Below are positions 4,714 to 40,001 of a stretch of 64,000 bases of DNA, one piece after another. A program made the position numbers and the translations under genes. Within the stretch, counting starts at the first letter, position 1, and each line of letters starts with the position of its first letter. Source of the DNA: Pseudohalocynthiibacter aestuariivivens (GTDB lineage Bacteria; Pseudomonadota; Alphaproteobacteria; Rhodobacterales; Rhodobacteraceae); contig NZ_JAGFNU010000001.1 of NCBI RefSeq assembly GCF_018457175.1, positions 434,001 through 498,000 of the forward strand, given 5' to 3'. The notes beneath the pieces are model-generated. The model was not told where the DNA came from. It did no database searches and saw only the letters and a list, made by a program, of their open reading frames with translations.

Positions 4714-5394
4714 ATGTCTATTTGGTCTCGTATTGGAGATGCTCTTTCTGCTCTTGCTACAGGTGAAAGCCTGAGCGAAGTCTTTGACCGGCTTCGAACA
4801 CCGCCTGAGAAATCCGTTGGTTTTACGATTGCAGTGATCGCGCTTGGCGCAAAAATGGCGAAGGCGGACGGTCGCGTGACCCGCGATGAGGTCACTGCGT
4901 TTCGTGAAGTGTTCAATATTGCGCCAGAAGACGAAGCAAACGCAGCACGCGTTTTTAACATGGCACGTCAGGACGTTGCAGGATTTGAGGAATATGCTGC
5001 CCGAATTGGCAAGATGTTTGGCACCGACGATCAAACATTGTGTTTTCTTCTGGAAGGCTTGTTTCATATCGCGATGGCGGATGGTGAGTATCATCCCAAG
5101 GAAGACGATTTTCTGCAGCGTGTGTCGGATATTCTGGGGATGAACGAATTGCAGTTTCGCAGTCTGCGCACGCGGTTCGTGCGAGATTCTGACCCGAATC
5201 CCTATGAGGTTTTGGGGGTCACGCCTGAAATGGCTCTGGAGGAAATACGCCGTGTCTGGCGACAGTTGGTGCGGGACACGCATCCCGACCATGTTATCGC
5301 ACGAGGCGTGCCGAAGGAGGCCGTGAAATTGGCAGAAGGCCGTATGGTCGCCATAAATCGCGCCTGGGAAGAAATACAAGAGGTGCACCCCTAA
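4714..5394 (+). CDS. TerB-like / J-domain co-chaperone (DjlA-like, no membrane anchor)
   Basis: A 226-residue protein with two parts. Residues about 30-150 form a TerB/DjlA-type helical domain (FTIAVIALGAKMAKADGRV...; DGEYHPKEDDFL), and residues about 165-226 form a J domain (NPYEVLGVTPEMALEEIRR, then the conserved HPD tripeptide in DTHPDH). A J domain stimulates the ATPase of an Hsp70 (DnaK). Unlike E. coli DjlA there is no N-terminal membrane segment, so it should be cytosolic. The stop codon overlaps the next gene's ATG (TAATG). Confidence 0.88.
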   Translation: MSIWSRIGDALSALATGESLSEVFDRLRTPPEKSVGFTIAVIALGAKMAKADGRVTRDEVTAFREVFNIAPEDEANAARVFNMARQDVAGFEEYAARIGKMFGTDDQTLCFLLEGLFHIAMADGEYHPKEDDFLQRVSDILGMNELQFRSLRTRFVRDSDPNPYEVLGVTPEMALEEIRRVWRQLVRDTHPDHVIARGVPKEAVKLAEGRMVAINRAWEEIQEVHP

Positions 5395-36138: not shown

Positions 36139-36840
36139 GGCATTTTCTTTCTAAGACATACAGGTGACATCCCGGCACATTTCTCTTTCGCCGGTCTGTT
36201 GAGCACCCAAAGGTATGTTCACGCCTCGAAACCCTGTAAATTCACGTACTTGTGAGGAATCTTAACTGGACCTAAAGAGTGGCATTTAAAGGTTAATTTG
36301 ATCCGATCTTCCATTGTGCACTATTGTGTACAAATTCGTTCGCTACCTAACTTTTGCCTTCTGCTGTAGACCGTGCCTGGGCCGTGCGACTGAGCATAAT
36401 GGTGGAAAATAAAAGGAAGTAATTTAACGAACGAACGGTAAAATATAATTTAATAAACGATCAAATAAAAACTTCGGACGATTGCACAAAGTTTTGGATT
36501 TCAATTCGTCAGATTGTGATATTTGATGCGTTGATTGAATGCACATGAACCGGGGAATAAGCCGGGGGTACCGCTCAGGACCGCCTCAAAACTGGACTTA
36601 AATTTCCGGCGAATTCGGCGGAAACTATTATCCAGTTGGGTTTGCACAGTAACCAAACAACTCTCATTTACCTGCAACAAATGACCACAAGTTTACGAAT
36701 TGTCGGGCCGCTAGAAACAATTGTGTTTAGACCGTGCTTGGAAAGAATCGGTAAGGTTGCCGAAAAACTTGGCATTGTGACGCGAAGATGCGCCTTATAA
36801 GCCTTATCGATAGTGTTTAAACAGATCCTTGGCTATCGAT
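36139..36840. other. AT-rich region without a recognisable gene
   Basis: About 700 bases between the start of the Hint gene and the end of the DUF1489 gene. No open frame of plausible composition or with a ribosome site was found on either strand. It is markedly AT-rich around 36400-36490, unlike the neighbours. It should contain the Hint gene promoter near its left end. No transposon ends or direct repeats were seen. Confidence 0.6.
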
Positions 36841-37272
36841 CTAACGTACACCAATATCGGCAAGGGCGGCTGAAAGCGCATGAGGAAGACTGTCTTCTTT
36901 CTCGCGGGATAGTTTCAGATCCCGGGGGCTGTCGTTCGGGTCAAGATAGCGCCAGCCCTGAAAGGGTCGCCGTGGTGCGGGTTCTGTCCGGAATAGTTTT
37001 GGGTCCATTACGATTGCGCAGCGTCTTATACCATCTTTTCCAATGGCTTCGTCCAGTCGCAAGACACGTTGGCGCGCCTGAATGACACCTTTGATAACCC
37101 AGTAAAGGGACCCGCCATTCAAAAGCTCTGCTTCGCGCCTTGGCCACATGCGGGTAATATGCTGGCTTGGGGTATCTTCGCCCTCAACACGGCGACTGGC
37201 ACGGTACGCTTCGAGCTGTTCAAAAGAGTCGATGCCGACGCAAAGCTTTACCAGATTTATGGTATTTTTCAT
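36841..37272 (-). CDS. DUF1489 family protein
   Basis: A 143-residue protein of the alphaproteobacterial DUF1489 family: NLVKLCVGIDSFEQLEAY at the start, ITRMWPRREAELLNGGSLYWVIKGVI in the middle, and the conserved CAIVMDPKLFRTEPAPRRPF followed by GWRYL. Function unknown; cytosolic. ATG 37272 is chosen because the family begins with M-x-x-T-I-N-L; the frame is open 41 codons further but that part is not family-like. Its ribosome site is weak. Confidence 0.85.
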   Translation of the reverse strand: MKNTINLVKLCVGIDSFEQLEAYRASRRVEGEDTPSQHITRMWPRREAELLNGGSLYWVIKGVIQARQRVLRLDEAIGKDGIRRCAIVMDPKLFRTEPAPRRPFQGWRYLDPNDSPRDLKLSREKEDSLPHALSAALADIGVR

Positions 37273-37445
37273 CAACAACCCCAACATGTAGCAAGAATTA
37301 CCTGCCGACTCTTGCATCATAACGCAAATTCGGAGCGGATTACAATTGACCGAAAAGGCTGCTGTACGTACCATTTCCGTAGAATCAAGACGCAAACAGG
37401 ACTCCTTGATGAGTCGAAATCTAAATCTTGGCTCGGTGAAATGTA

Positions 37446-37559
37446 GCGAAGTAGCTCAAAAGGACAGAGCGCTCTGCTTTCGAGTATTATAACTGGTGCC
37501 GGCAAGCACTATAATAGTACGGTAGAGAGGATGTGGGTTCAAGTCCCGCCTTCGCATCA
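37446..37559 (+). tRNA. tRNA-like gene with hairpin insertion in the anticodon loop; identity undetermined
   Basis: Acceptor GCGAAG (37446-37451) pairs with CUUCGC (37550-37555), then A and UCA in place of CCA. U-A follow, then a D arm GCUC / GAGC with loop AAAAGGACA containing the G18-G19 pair. The anticodon stem CUCUG (37472-37476) pairs with UAGAG (37523-37527), then a five-base variable loop AGGAU, and a T arm GUGGG-UUCAAGU-CCCGC. The anticodon loop is 46 bases instead of 7. It contains CUUUCGA, which would give anticodon UUC, then an extra 39 bases with a hairpin (UAUUAUA..GUGC / GCAC..UAUAAUA). The acceptor has only six pairs (or seven with an A-A mismatch). Either a decayed tRNA or an unusual functional RNA; it sits upstream of nrdJ. 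Confidence 0.5.
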
Positions 37560-37736
37560 AATTCAACGTTTTCTCTTTTTGAACAATGCGTGAGTTTCAT
37601 TGGAGAACAGAAAATTGTAGCTATATCTAGTGTAGTCATTTTTATGACCCGCGATTTATGGTTTGATAGCAATTGACCGAAATAGTCTGGCAGCCTATCG
37701 TGTATCTCCTTTCGTTCTGCCACCAAGGACCTGCCG

Positions 37737-40001
37737 ATGAGCCGTTTTTCCGCCCCGATCGCTGAACAAATCTGGGATATGAAGTACCGTCTGAAATCTT
37801 CTGATGGTACCCCGGTTGATGCAACGGTCGAGGATACCTGGAGGCGGATCGCGCGTTCCCTGGCCAAGGTTGAAAAAGACCCGGCAGTCTGGGAAGAAAA
37901 ATTTTACACTGCGCTTGAAGGTTTTAAGTATCTGCCAGCCGGAAGAATTACAGCTGGGGCAGGTACCGATAGGTCCGTGACACTGTTCAACTGCTTTGTC
38001 ATGGGAACGATCCCGGACAGCATGGGTGGTATTTTCGATATGTTGCGCGAGGCCGCGCTGACCATGCAGCAAGGCGGCGGGATCGGGTATGATTTCAGCA
38101 CGATCAGGCCGAAAGGTGCGGATGTGCTGGGTGTTGCGGCTGATGCATCTGGCCCCTTGTCGTTTATGGACGTGTGGGACGCGATGTGTCGCACAATCAT
38201 GAGCGCTGGCAGTCGCCGTGGCGCGATGATGGCAACGATGCGCTGTGACCACCCTGATATCGAAGACTTCATCACGGCAAAGCGTGACCCCGCGCGTTTG
38301 CGGATGTTCAATGTATCAGTTCTTGTTACCGATTCCTTCATGGAAGCGGTGAAGGCTAACAAAAGCTGGGACCTTACCTTTAACGGAAAGATTTATCACA
38401 CCGTCGAGGCGCGCGATCTTTGGAACAAGATCATGCAGTCGACGTATGATCAGGCTGAACCGGGGGTGATTTTCATCGACCGGATCAATGCGATGAACAA
38501 CCTTTCCTATTGCGAGACAATTGCTGCGACCAATCCCTGCGGTGAACAGCCGTTGCCGCCATATGGCGCTTGCTTACTTGGGTCTGTAAATCTGGCACGT
38601 CTTGTGTACGCTCCTTTTGCCAAAAAGGCGTCTTTGGATCAGGAAGCGTTAAGTGAACTCGTCGCGACAGCCGTGCGGATGATGGATAATGTCGTAGACG
38701 CCAGTCGTTTTCCCTTGCCTCAGCAGGCACAGGAAGCGCAGACAAAACGTCGTATTGGCCTTGGTGTAACTGGTCTGGCGGATGCTTTGCTGATGGTCGG
38801 TTTGCGCTATGGCTCGGAAGAGGCAGCGGAGCAGACCGAGCGCTGGATGAAGGCAATTGCACGTGCCGCTTATCTGGCCTCGGTGGAGTTAGCGAAGGAG
38901 AAAGGGGCTTTCCCGCTTTTTGATGCAGAAAAATTCCTAGCCACCGGCCACATGATGGAGATGGACGAAGACGTGCGCGCCGCGATCCGCGAACATGGCA
39001 TTCGAAATGCGTTGCTCACCTCTATTGCGCCGACAGGCACGATCAGCCTTTATGCGGGCAATGTGAGCTCGGGGATCGAACCGGTCTTCGCTTATGCTTA
39101 CACACGTAAGGTGCTGCAGAAAGACGGAAGCCGGACAGAGGAAGAAGTCGTTGACTATGCCGTGCAGCTTTGGCGCGAAAAATTTGGCGACAAAGAGTTG
39201 CCGGATTACTTTGTAAATGCGCAAACGCTTGCCCCGATGGATCATGTGCGTATGCAGGCCGCAGCACAAAAATGGATCGATTCAAGTATTTCGAAAACAA
39301 TCAATTGCCCCGAAGATATCAGTTTTGACGCCTTCAAAGACGTTTACATGGCGGCCTGGGATAGCGGCTGCAAAGGATGCACAACCTATCGTCCCAACGA
39401 TGTGACTGGTTCCGTCCTAAGCGTCAGCGAAAGTTCTGAAAATGTTCCCGAGGCCGAGACTGGCGCAGAAGTTGTTTACATCAGCGAGCCGCTTGACCGC
39501 CCGCAAGCACTGGAAGGCAATACGTACAAGCTGAAATGGCCCGATAGTGAACACGCGATATACATCACGGTAAACGACGTCATGATCAATGGACACCGTC
39601 GGCCTTTTGAAGTTTTCATCAACTCCAAGAACATGGAGCATTTCGCCTGGACTGTCGCCCTGACGCGGATGATATCTGCAGTCTTCCGGCGTGGTGGGGA
39701 TGTCAGTTTTGTTGTGGAAGAGCTGAAAGCGGTGTTTGACCCGCGTGGTGGTGCGTGGATGTCTGGCAAATACGTGCCGTCAATTCTTGCCGCAATCGGT
39801 GGTGTGATCGAACATCATTTGATCACGATAGGTTTTATCGAAGGCGAAGGCATGGGGCTGAAATCTGATCCGCAGTCACAAGTTGTGCAAATCGGCGGTG
39901 CACCGCGTGGCAAAGCCTGTCCGAGCTGTGGGCAATATGACATGCGGATGATCGAAGGTTGTATGACTTGCGGAAGCTGTGGGCATTCTAAATGCGGCTG
40001 A
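37737..40001 (+). CDS. nrdJ: Adenosylcobalamin-dependent ribonucleotide reductase, class II
   Basis: A 754-residue class II reductase making deoxyribonucleotides with B12 and independently of oxygen. It has the N-terminal PAGRITAGAGT, SLFNCFV-type first redox cysteine (TLFNCFVMG), the NPCGEQPLPPYGAC motif with the thiyl-radical cysteine, and PTGTISLYAGNVSSGIEP. The C-terminus carries extra cysteine pairs (CPSCGQYDMR, CMTCGSCGHSKCG) that would shuttle electrons or bind zinc. AAGGACCTGCCG precedes ATG 37737. No cobalamin riboswitch is seen upstream. Confidence 0.96.
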   Translation: MSRFSAPIAEQIWDMKYRLKSSDGTPVDATVEDTWRRIARSLAKVEKDPAVWEEKFYTALEGFKYLPAGRITAGAGTDRSVTLFNCFVMGTIPDSMGGIFDMLREAALTMQQGGGIGYDFSTIRPKGADVLGVAADASGPLSFMDVWDAMCRTIMSAGSRRGAMMATMRCDHPDIEDFITAKRDPARLRMFNVSVLVTDSFMEAVKANKSWDLTFNGKIYHTVEARDLWNKIMQSTYDQAEPGVIFIDRINAMNNLSYCETIAATNPCGEQPLPPYGACLLGSVNLARLVYAPFAKKASLDQEALSELVATAVRMMDNVVDASRFPLPQQAQEAQTKRRIGLGVTGLADALLMVGLRYGSEEAAEQTERWMKAIARAAYLASVELAKEKGAFPLFDAEKFLATGHMMEMDEDVRAAIREHGIRNALLTSIAPTGTISLYAGNVSSGIEPVFAYAYTRKVLQKDGSRTEEEVVDYAVQLWREKFGDKELPDYFVNAQTLAPMDHVRMQAAAQKWIDSSISKTINCPEDISFDAFKDVYMAAWDSGCKGCTTYRPNDVTGSVLSVSESSENVPEAETGAEVVYISEPLDRPQALEGNTYKLKWPDSEHAIYITVNDVMINGHRRPFEVFINSKNMEHFAWTVALTRMISAVFRRGGDVSFVVEELKAVFDPRGGAWMSGKYVPSILAAIGGVIEHHLITIGFIEGEGMGLKSDPQSQVVQIGGAPRGKACPSCGQYDMRMIEGCMTCGSCGHSKCG

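Follow-up and report, generated by a model that had tools for sequence, protein, structure and literature searches.

A tRNA-like RNA with a hairpin in its anticodon loop, upstream of nrdJ in a member of the Rhodobacteraceae, and its covarying relatives behind HTH_36 genes

The window analysed here (the whole stretch of 64,000 nt from Pseudohalocynthiibacter aestuariivivens) carries a tRNA-like RNA upstream of nrdJ, in the order promoter copy, RNA, NrdR-like boxes, second promoter, nrdJ (Table 1). The two promoter regions resemble each other: 37338-37355 and 37665-37682 give a local alignment score of 31 against 20.5 ± 3.0 (1 of 200 shuffles). A TTGACC element similar to the nrdJ promoter was seen by eye in the nrdJ leaders of many relatives. 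The better of the two NrdR-like boxes scores 12 of 16 against the NrdR consensus, a score that is reached at three positions in the whole window.

Table 1. Features of the window (window coordinates) and plasmid loci carrying the RNA
Feature	Location	Strand	Basis or remark
Promoter-like TTGACC-N17-TACCAT	37346..37374	+	Upstream of RNA, within diverged nrdJ-promoter copy
tRNA-like RNA	37445..37560	+	tRNA positions 1-76 plus 39-nt insert, 116 nt; Rfam RF00005
Anticodon stem 5' strand, positions 27-31, CUCUG	37472..37476	+	Partner strand 37523-37527
Positions 32-38, CUUUCGA	37477..37483	+	C32-U33 paired with insert end; 5-nt bulge UUCGA remains
39-nt insert, between positions 38 and 39	37484..37522	+	MFE fold; 7-bp helix covaries across family
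Anticodon stem 3' strand, positions 39-43, UAGAG	37523..37527	+	Register dissection
T arm GUGGG-UUCAAGU-CCCGC	37533..37549	+	Rfam match and register dissection
Discriminator U73 and CAA	37557..37560	+	Family: C73 14/19, CCA 9/19 copies counted
Two NrdR-box-like 16-mers	37618..37664	.	37618 12/16, 37649 10/16
nrdJ promoter-like TTGACC-N17-TATCGT	37673..37701	+	By sequence
nrdJ, adenosylcobalamin-dependent ribonucleotide reductase	37737..40001	+	NCBIfam TIGR02504, 603.8 bits, cut-off 399.95
L248	S. meliloti pRm1132f		Plasmid, RNA behind HTH gene
L252	Methylosinus		Plasmid, RNA behind HTH gene
L266	Methylocaldum		Plasmid, RNA behind HTH gene
L267	Bradyrhizobium		Plasmid, RNA behind HTH gene
L271	Spongiibacter		Plasmid, RNA behind HTH gene
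L272	Caulobacter		Plasmid, RNA behind HTH gene
L273	Paraburkholderia		Plasmid, RNA behind HTH gene
L276	Xanthobacter		Plasmid, RNA behind HTH gene

The cloverleaf, with its conserved D and T elements, is present in the window RNA. The Infernal comparison with the tRNA model that the initial annotation had proposed (Rfam cmscan) gave a match to RF00005 at 37445-37557 well above the cut-off (41.4 bits, cut-off 29, E 7.3e-7) and, together with the sequence itself, bears out the earlier description of tRNA parts in their proper order with a hairpin inserted among them. The RNA lies where it had been placed, but its register was out by one: standard tRNA numbering puts nt 1 at 37445 rather than 37446. 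The acceptor (AGCGAAG/CUUCGCA) forms six of its seven pairs, as had been counted before, with A1.A72 mismatched, and is followed by U8 A9 and the D arm (GCUC-AAAAGGACA-GAGC); the variable loop is AGGAU. CCA is indeed missing, but the UCA that had been read in its place was likewise one base out of register and is actually U73 followed by CAA. The anticodon loop measures 46 nt and consists of CUUUCGA plus an insert of exactly 39 nt, both lengths being those given before. The insert runs as a 7-bp helix (GUAUUAU/AUAGUAC), an internal loop, a 6-bp apical stem with a 6-nt loop (CGGCAA) and a final GG, and this GG pairs with C32-U33 (C32-G, U33-G), making the anticodon stem two pairs longer; the 11-pair insert stem proposed earlier is therefore replaced by stems of seven and six pairs on either side of the internal loop, together with the two-pair extension. 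No free 7-nt anticodon loop is left, positions 32-33 being paired and followed by bulge and helix, and the 5-nt bulge faces 0 nt, which is not the arrangement of two 3-nt bulges around a 4-bp helix. The minimum free energy is −38.8 kcal/mol (z −2.72; 1 of 200 shuffles equally good).

Plain ARAGORN called neither a tRNA nor a tmRNA in the window, and with introns allowed it called a tRNA-Arg(TCG) with a 17-nt intron whose place varies with the option used. The host genome (3.90 Mb in 44 contigs) gave 40 RF00005 matches, 39 of them above the cut-off and the window RNA the weakest of these 39; no further copy of the window RNA was found in that genome. Ordinary host tRNAs called by ARAGORN cover both would-be anticodon readings, namely Glu(UUC) and Arg (ACG, CCG, UCU and CCU), and the host does not seem to need the window RNA for decoding. 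CCA is encoded in all 35 distinct host tRNAs extracted, and their position 73 is A in 24, G in seven, U in four and C in none. As a few host tRNAs begin with C, A or U, and 19 of the 35 have U at −1, the first base and U(−1) are weak evidence as features of the family described below.

A BLASTN search with 114 nt against 394 genomes of the same bacterial family returned the self-match only, divergence being too high for plain sequence search, and an inserted-tRNA pattern run over 289 genomes of the class found the window alone. Intron-tolerant ARAGORN made four intron calls in the regions upstream of nrdJ at the best 80 of 590 loci. Two of them, L040 (Aliiroseovarius sp. F20344) and L090 (a Brevirhabdus MAG), are tRNA-like genes that sit right in front of nrdJ and have an arm instead of an anticodon loop. 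The other two were dropped, L065 lying on the other strand and L088 ending more than 1 kb upstream of nrdJ; neither has a match to model R1, a covariance model built from the window RNA alone. The fold of L090 is that of the window RNA despite the different helix (AUAGAUU/AGUCUAU versus GUAUUAU/AUAGUAC), and R1 scores L040 at 69.5 bits and L090 at 60.8 bits. Three more R1 matches were set aside, L053 as an ordinary 73-nt tRNA and L110 and L101 as weak (E 7.7 and 9.1). A filtered R1 search of the 394 genomes gave matches in 21 genomes at E 1e-6; five of these are long (101-112 nt), comprising the window, L154 (genome G201), L155 (G234), L156 (G243, the same locus as L090) and L157 (G061), and the other 16, at 71-73 nt, have the size of an ordinary tRNA. 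In L155, L156 and L157 the RNA is immediately upstream of nrdJ; in L154 it is 6 nt behind a helix–turn–helix (HTH) gene and not near nrdJ. An additional 30 nrdJ loci (including L123, which is the window) gave no other case by ARAGORN.

The link of the RNA to nrdJ looked incidental at the outset, yet it recurs in five lineages. Between nt 76 and the start of nrdJ there are 18 nt in L155 and L156, 25 nt in L157, 42 nt in L040 and 176 nt in the window. Comparison by eye places the RNA of L040, L155 and L156 downstream of the promoter and ahead of the nrdJ ORF, a stretch that in related loci is only a short leader. A rapid tree of 104 NrdJ N-terminal regions shows the carrier loci scattered. Among close relatives the RNA is sporadic, being present in one of five species in the genus of G234 (the remaining matches are 73-nt tRNAs), in one of two in the genus of G243 and at one of six Aliiroseovarius nrdJ loci (L034, L037, L040, L042, L050 and L100). 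A tree of the RNA cores gave support too low, the cores being short, to bear on a single origin of the nrdJ-linked copies. A duplicated nrdJ start before the RNA was considered for all five lineages and set aside: the window repeat alone stands out (1 of 200 shuffles) and the other four do not. In-register CCA is missing in L040, L156 and L157, which fits decay as well as it fits a change of use. No HTH relative was found by tblastn beside the nrdJ-linked copies, nor any relative of four HTH proteins in the window. In L155 a 37-codon ORF ends about 9 nt before the RNA and begins near the nrdJ start of its sister locus L284.

The main home of the RNA is behind HTH_36 genes, which the initial annotation had not anticipated. 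At L154 the HTH gene is frameshifted (tblastn with the L261 HTH protein, E 1e-40) and the surroundings hold recombinase fragments; a second odd tRNA lies beside the RNA there (L154:1343-1425, minus strand), with a long variable arm but an Ile(GAU) anticodon. A second model, R2 (the window RNA scores 92.8 bits with it but is one of its six training rows), was run over 385 genomes of the class without regard to gene context and gave matches in seven genomes: two of 72-73 nt, the size of ordinary tRNAs, the window, and L260, L261, L262 and L263. As this search scored 10 candidates per genome where there were up to several hundred, it underestimates prevalence; the genome searches being filtered, absence of the RNA from a genome is weak evidence. 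In L261 and L262 the RNA is behind an HTH gene (the L262 protein matches DnaD_N only below the Pfam cut-off), in L260 an HTH remnant (25 aa, E 8e-4) ends about 166 nt before it and in L263 it follows a DGQHR/DndB-like gene. On a viral contig (L218/L242) it begins 7 nt past the stop codon of an HTH_36 gene (Pfam) and scores 76.3 bits with R2, the top of 67 viral contigs; a nearby gene appears by eye to encode a serine recombinase. A tighter pattern that demanded the bulge matched no contig in one form and a single contig in the other (L286), where the RNA lies about 11 nt behind an HTH gene. Of the ten copies found without gene context, five are behind an HTH gene, one behind a remnant, three at nrdJ and one behind the DGQHR/DndB-like gene.

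When the HTH proteins were used as bait in plasmid searches, 165, 275 and 338 records matched and 28 loci were fetched (8 + 9 + 11). Eight of the 28 have the RNA directly behind the HTH gene (Table 1) and in the other 20 no such RNA was found, so that the HTH protein does not need the RNA. The family thus comes to 20 copies, the window and 19 others: four before nrdJ (all in Rhodobacteraceae), 13 behind an HTH_36/DnaD-like gene and no more than 12 nt from its stop codon, one with an HTH remnant and one with the DGQHR/DndB-like gene. The HTH-linked copies are on plasmids in eight of 13 cases and come from alpha-, beta- and gammaproteobacteria; the partner protein is a winged helix by Pfam. In the 12 loci measured (11 HTH loci and L263) nt 1 lies −2 to 12 nt after the stop codon. 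At seven of the eight plasmid loci (not L271) one number is missing from the locus tags just after the HTH gene; an RNA or pseudogene annotated there would fit, the plasmid table itself listing no RNA genes. In L248, L266 and L271 a terminator-like hairpin follows the RNA (by eye) and the next annotated gene is on the opposite strand. Replication of pRm1132f is by a rolling-circle mechanism according to PMC10194956, and neither ‘tRNA’ nor ‘helix-turn-helix’ has a match in that text.

The slot that the RNA occupies behind the HTH gene is filled differently in related elements, by a MazF-like toxin gene, a DUF3800 gene or structured RNAs of other kinds. PemK/MazF-family toxin genes, for instance, lie directly behind HTH_36 genes at L268:1710-2159 and L269:1706-2122, the cargo in the slot thus being varied. 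Two alphaproteobacterial plasmids have a conserved-looking hairpin RNA (GGCGCUUCGG.CAGAAGCAU...) behind their HTH_36 genes (L246 after 2309, L251 after 1209), for which Rfam gave no match. A second conserved element (GCCCCGG...GCAGAGGCG...GGGCU) lies between the HTH_36 gene and the next ORF in L255, L256, L257, L259 (after 1251) and L274 (after 1698), and had no Rfam match in the four loci scanned (L255, L256, L257 and L259).

The stems of the family covary. In an alignment of six sequences 95.5% of cells are paired (38-55% in slid controls) and 15 of 35 pairs have changed on both sides; in one of twenty rows (19 members plus an ordinary tRNA that had scored above the threshold) the figures are 96.0% and 25 of 30 pairs. 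None of 500 shuffles equalled either alignment, although both were fitted to a model and their pair counts lean towards it. In the insert helix all seven pairs have changed on both sides over the twenty rows, with 86.6% of cells paired, and RNAalifold recovered this helix from the same alignment. The window RNA is therefore more than a product of chance, and covarying relatives do exist near nrdJ, where the initial annotation had suggested looking, and elsewhere; the first of its two conditions for a one-off degenerate tRNA, a lack of related sequences with covarying stems, accordingly falls away. The notion of a tRNA pseudogene that took up a palindromic element finds no support as the origin, since the 20 copies share the insert site and 16 have a related bulge, whereas that of a remodelled tRNA-like RNA with a non-decoding role gains support from the covarying relatives and from the ordinary host tRNAs for both readings.

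Members of the family retain the acceptor, the D and T arms, U8, G18G19 and the T loop, and CCA is encoded in nine of 19. Position 73 is C in 14 of the 19 copies, U in four, G in one and A in none. The extra sequence between positions 38 and 39 is 26-54 nt long. Its clearest form is CCCUG-CUUUC[U/G]A-CAUA...UAUGGG-CAGGG, and the exact succession of stem, 5-nt bulge and helix is found in nine of 19 copies by single-arm MFE (L153, L155, L156, L252, L263, L266, L271, L272 and L276) and also in L286; the remaining anticodon arms fold as a related or a different long hairpin (MFE). Counting by eye, with a shift of one or two bases in register for arms whose stem had been cut at another place, gives UUC[U/G]A after position 33 in 10 of the 20 copies and a fit to NNC[U/G]A in 16; one of the 20, L286, came from a search pattern that demands this sequence. 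L242 departs at the final base of the bulge, and the bulge sequence is not matched by L040, L267 or L273. Of these hallmarks the window RNA has the bulge (UUCGA) and the 7-bp helix, and lacks C73, CCA and the HTH_36 neighbour. Rfam 15 gave ‘tRNA’ alone, at 41-52 bits, for the five members scanned (window, L154, L242, L248 and L252), and no description of such an RNA was recognised among the matches listed in a full-text literature search whose scope took in few subscription papers. The family is apparently not yet described.

The reading we favour, to which we would give about half of our belief, is that the window RNA is a chromosomal copy of a family of tRNA mimics of mobile elements and would be non-decoding, uncharged and trans-acting. 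RNase P and the 3' tRNA-processing machinery would release the RNA from its transcript. It would be neither charged nor used in decoding and would work in trans as a stable mimic of tRNA: a tRNA-binding protein would recognise the body, and the bulge and hairpin would supply specificity. The family is found mostly on plasmids and other mobile elements, directly behind the HTH_36/DnaD-like winged-helix gene, and the nrdJ promoter or leader would be a sporadic capture site; at nrdJ the RNA would borrow the nrdJ promoter, the window RNA having its own diverged copy. Several features point this way. The intact tRNA body and the CCA of nine copies suggest that family RNAs are processed by RNase P and at the 3' end. 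In the light of what determines tRNA identity, most members are unlikely to be charged, because C73 is found in 14 of 19 copies and in none of 35 host tRNAs; the window RNA has U73, so that for it the argument is weaker and does not apply directly. As nrdJ keeps its own promoter and NrdR-like boxes behind the window RNA, a trans role or a relic is likelier there than cis control of nrdJ, and with its U73, missing CCA and mismatched first acceptor pair the window copy may be a relic. A stable trans-acting mimic would be the simplest function. An extended version, which we hold tentatively and think on balance doubtful, joins RNA and protein in a two-part mobile-element module, a DnaD/HTH_36 protein and an uncharged tRNA mimic, with independent captures at nrdJ promoters; the mimic would then be the RNA partner or effector of the HTH protein, for instance by acting as a decoy in the protection or control of a tRNA-dependent process.

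Comparison with known RNAs helps to place such a mimic. With tRNA (RF00005) the family shares the cloverleaf, U8, G18G19, the T loop, a 7-bp acceptor and, in nine of 19 copies, CCA; it differs in having no readable 7-nt anticodon loop, mostly C73, an insert between 38 and 39 and, for most copies, a position within a few nucleotides of a protein gene. tmRNA and the bacterial Y RNA YrlA are non-decoding RNAs with a borrowed tRNA body, and the family would resemble them in this respect, but it has full D and anticodon stems, and no tmRNA was called in the window. The thrS operator is a tRNA-like element in an mRNA leader. The family likewise has a tRNA shape beside a gene, with possible control in cis, but its cloverleaf is complete and lies mostly behind the partner gene, and the partner genes do not encode aminoacyl-tRNA synthetases. 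If the mimic reading is true, a tRNA mimic without an anticodon would be a rare class of bacterial RNA, present in three proteobacterial classes, the members of which may so far have been recorded piecemeal as ‘tRNA’, and some ‘tRNAs’ annotated near plasmid HTH genes would not decode. Given the bulge and the linkage to one protein family, the partner should be findable by pull-down, and repeated capture at nrdJ would tie a mobile-element RNA to a gene of DNA-precursor supply.

Among the other explanations cis processing comes first, a decayed window copy next and an intron reading after these. That the RNA is a cis processing element, its tRNA shape being a cleavage signal that sets the stability of the neighbouring mRNA, we consider rather unlikely. 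The cuts, by RNase P on the 5' side and by 3' tRNA processing, would fall just past the stop codon of the HTH gene or just short of the ribosome-binding site of nrdJ, and may be tuned by the hairpin arm. Such a role agrees with the tight spacing (−2 to 12 nt past stop codons; 18-42 nt before nrdJ in four lineages) and with the position of the RNA between nrdJ promoter and ORF in L040, L155 and L156 (by eye). However, a second promoter and NrdR-like boxes separate the window RNA from nrdJ, the hairpin and opposite-strand gene that follow the RNA in L248, L266 and L271 leave no downstream target, and a shared bulge in the anticodon region would be needless for a mere cut signal.

It is also possible, though in our judgement unlikely, that the family is real and the window copy itself without function, the decaying remains of a mobile element that once arrived at the nrdJ promoter. 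A1.A72, U73 and CAA for CCA in this copy, the sporadic presence of the RNA among sister species and the promoter repeat, as a trace of past duplication or insertion, are all consistent with this, but every other stem of the window RNA is intact despite deep divergence from its relatives, and a promoter-like copy precedes it.

Quite improbable is an intron-bearing tRNA, in which the hairpin would be a short intron at 38/39 and the spliced arm would read CCCUG-CUUUC[U/G]A-CAGGG, with anticodon UUC in the best copies. Intron-bearing tRNA genes resemble the family in that extra anticodon-loop sequence pairs with the loop; the insert always enters at one point, 13 of 19 copies have U33 and, with the insert omitted, five of five anticodon-stem pairs form in 16 of 19 (in the register favouring pairing). 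Against this, position 37 is U in nine of 19 copies and the would-be anticodon varies, the acceptors are diverse and N73 is mostly C, which gives no single identity, and the host already has tRNA-Glu(UUC). The usual site of archaeal and eukaryotic tRNA introns is 37/38 and not the 38/39 of the family, whose one-sided 5-nt bulge also differs from the bulge–helix–bulge of those introns. Group I introns are much longer than the window insert, and the Rfam models of them found no match within 36500-38500 at E up to 10. A one-off degenerate tRNA with a chance palindrome, as the lone BLASTN self-match in 394 genomes and the lone exact pattern match in 289 could have been taken to mean, is barely credible and is refuted by the covarying relatives that the covariance model finds in the same 394 genomes.

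Some further candidates were set aside. Antisense pairing of loop and insert with the leader of the partner gene was tried at 15 loci and gave no convincing case, the best having z −1.46 (L248; 18 of 200 shuffles, the control being simple base shuffles). The RNA with its surroundings (321 nt) had short matches in a phage collection at E 0.09 or worse among the best 20 of 82 records, and several of the matches listed were to tRNA genes. A first pattern scan of viral contigs gave the 67 contigs mentioned above, mostly with tandem tRNAs, inserts elsewhere or a hairpin-bearing tRNA-Arg(UCU); R2 matched these contigs 120 times at E 1e-4, often at ordinary tRNAs, and L218 alone was accepted. L179, next after it at 65.6 bits, has neither the bulge nor an HTH relative. 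This phage tRNA-like RNA (L179:4913-5002, minus strand) has an anticodon arm with a long hairpin, follows an ORF (5013-5354, minus strand) at about 10 nt and is possibly a distant relative of the family. The tRNA-Arg(UCU)-like phage genes (L184:1997-2095 and L192:5742-5840, minus strand; L214:4900-4999 and L235:353-463, plus strand) have hairpins of about 26-37 nt, apparently after position 36 (CUUCU...AA, by eye), a similar idea to that of the window RNA with a different insert site. Other phage tRNA-like genes have an insert of about 40 nt between the D and anticodon arms (L183, L189, L209 and L233, whose RNAs are identical); such an insert is also present in L202, L219, L227, L230, L238, L180 and L224, and most of the genes in the two lists share an ACAGCAA-like motif (by eye).
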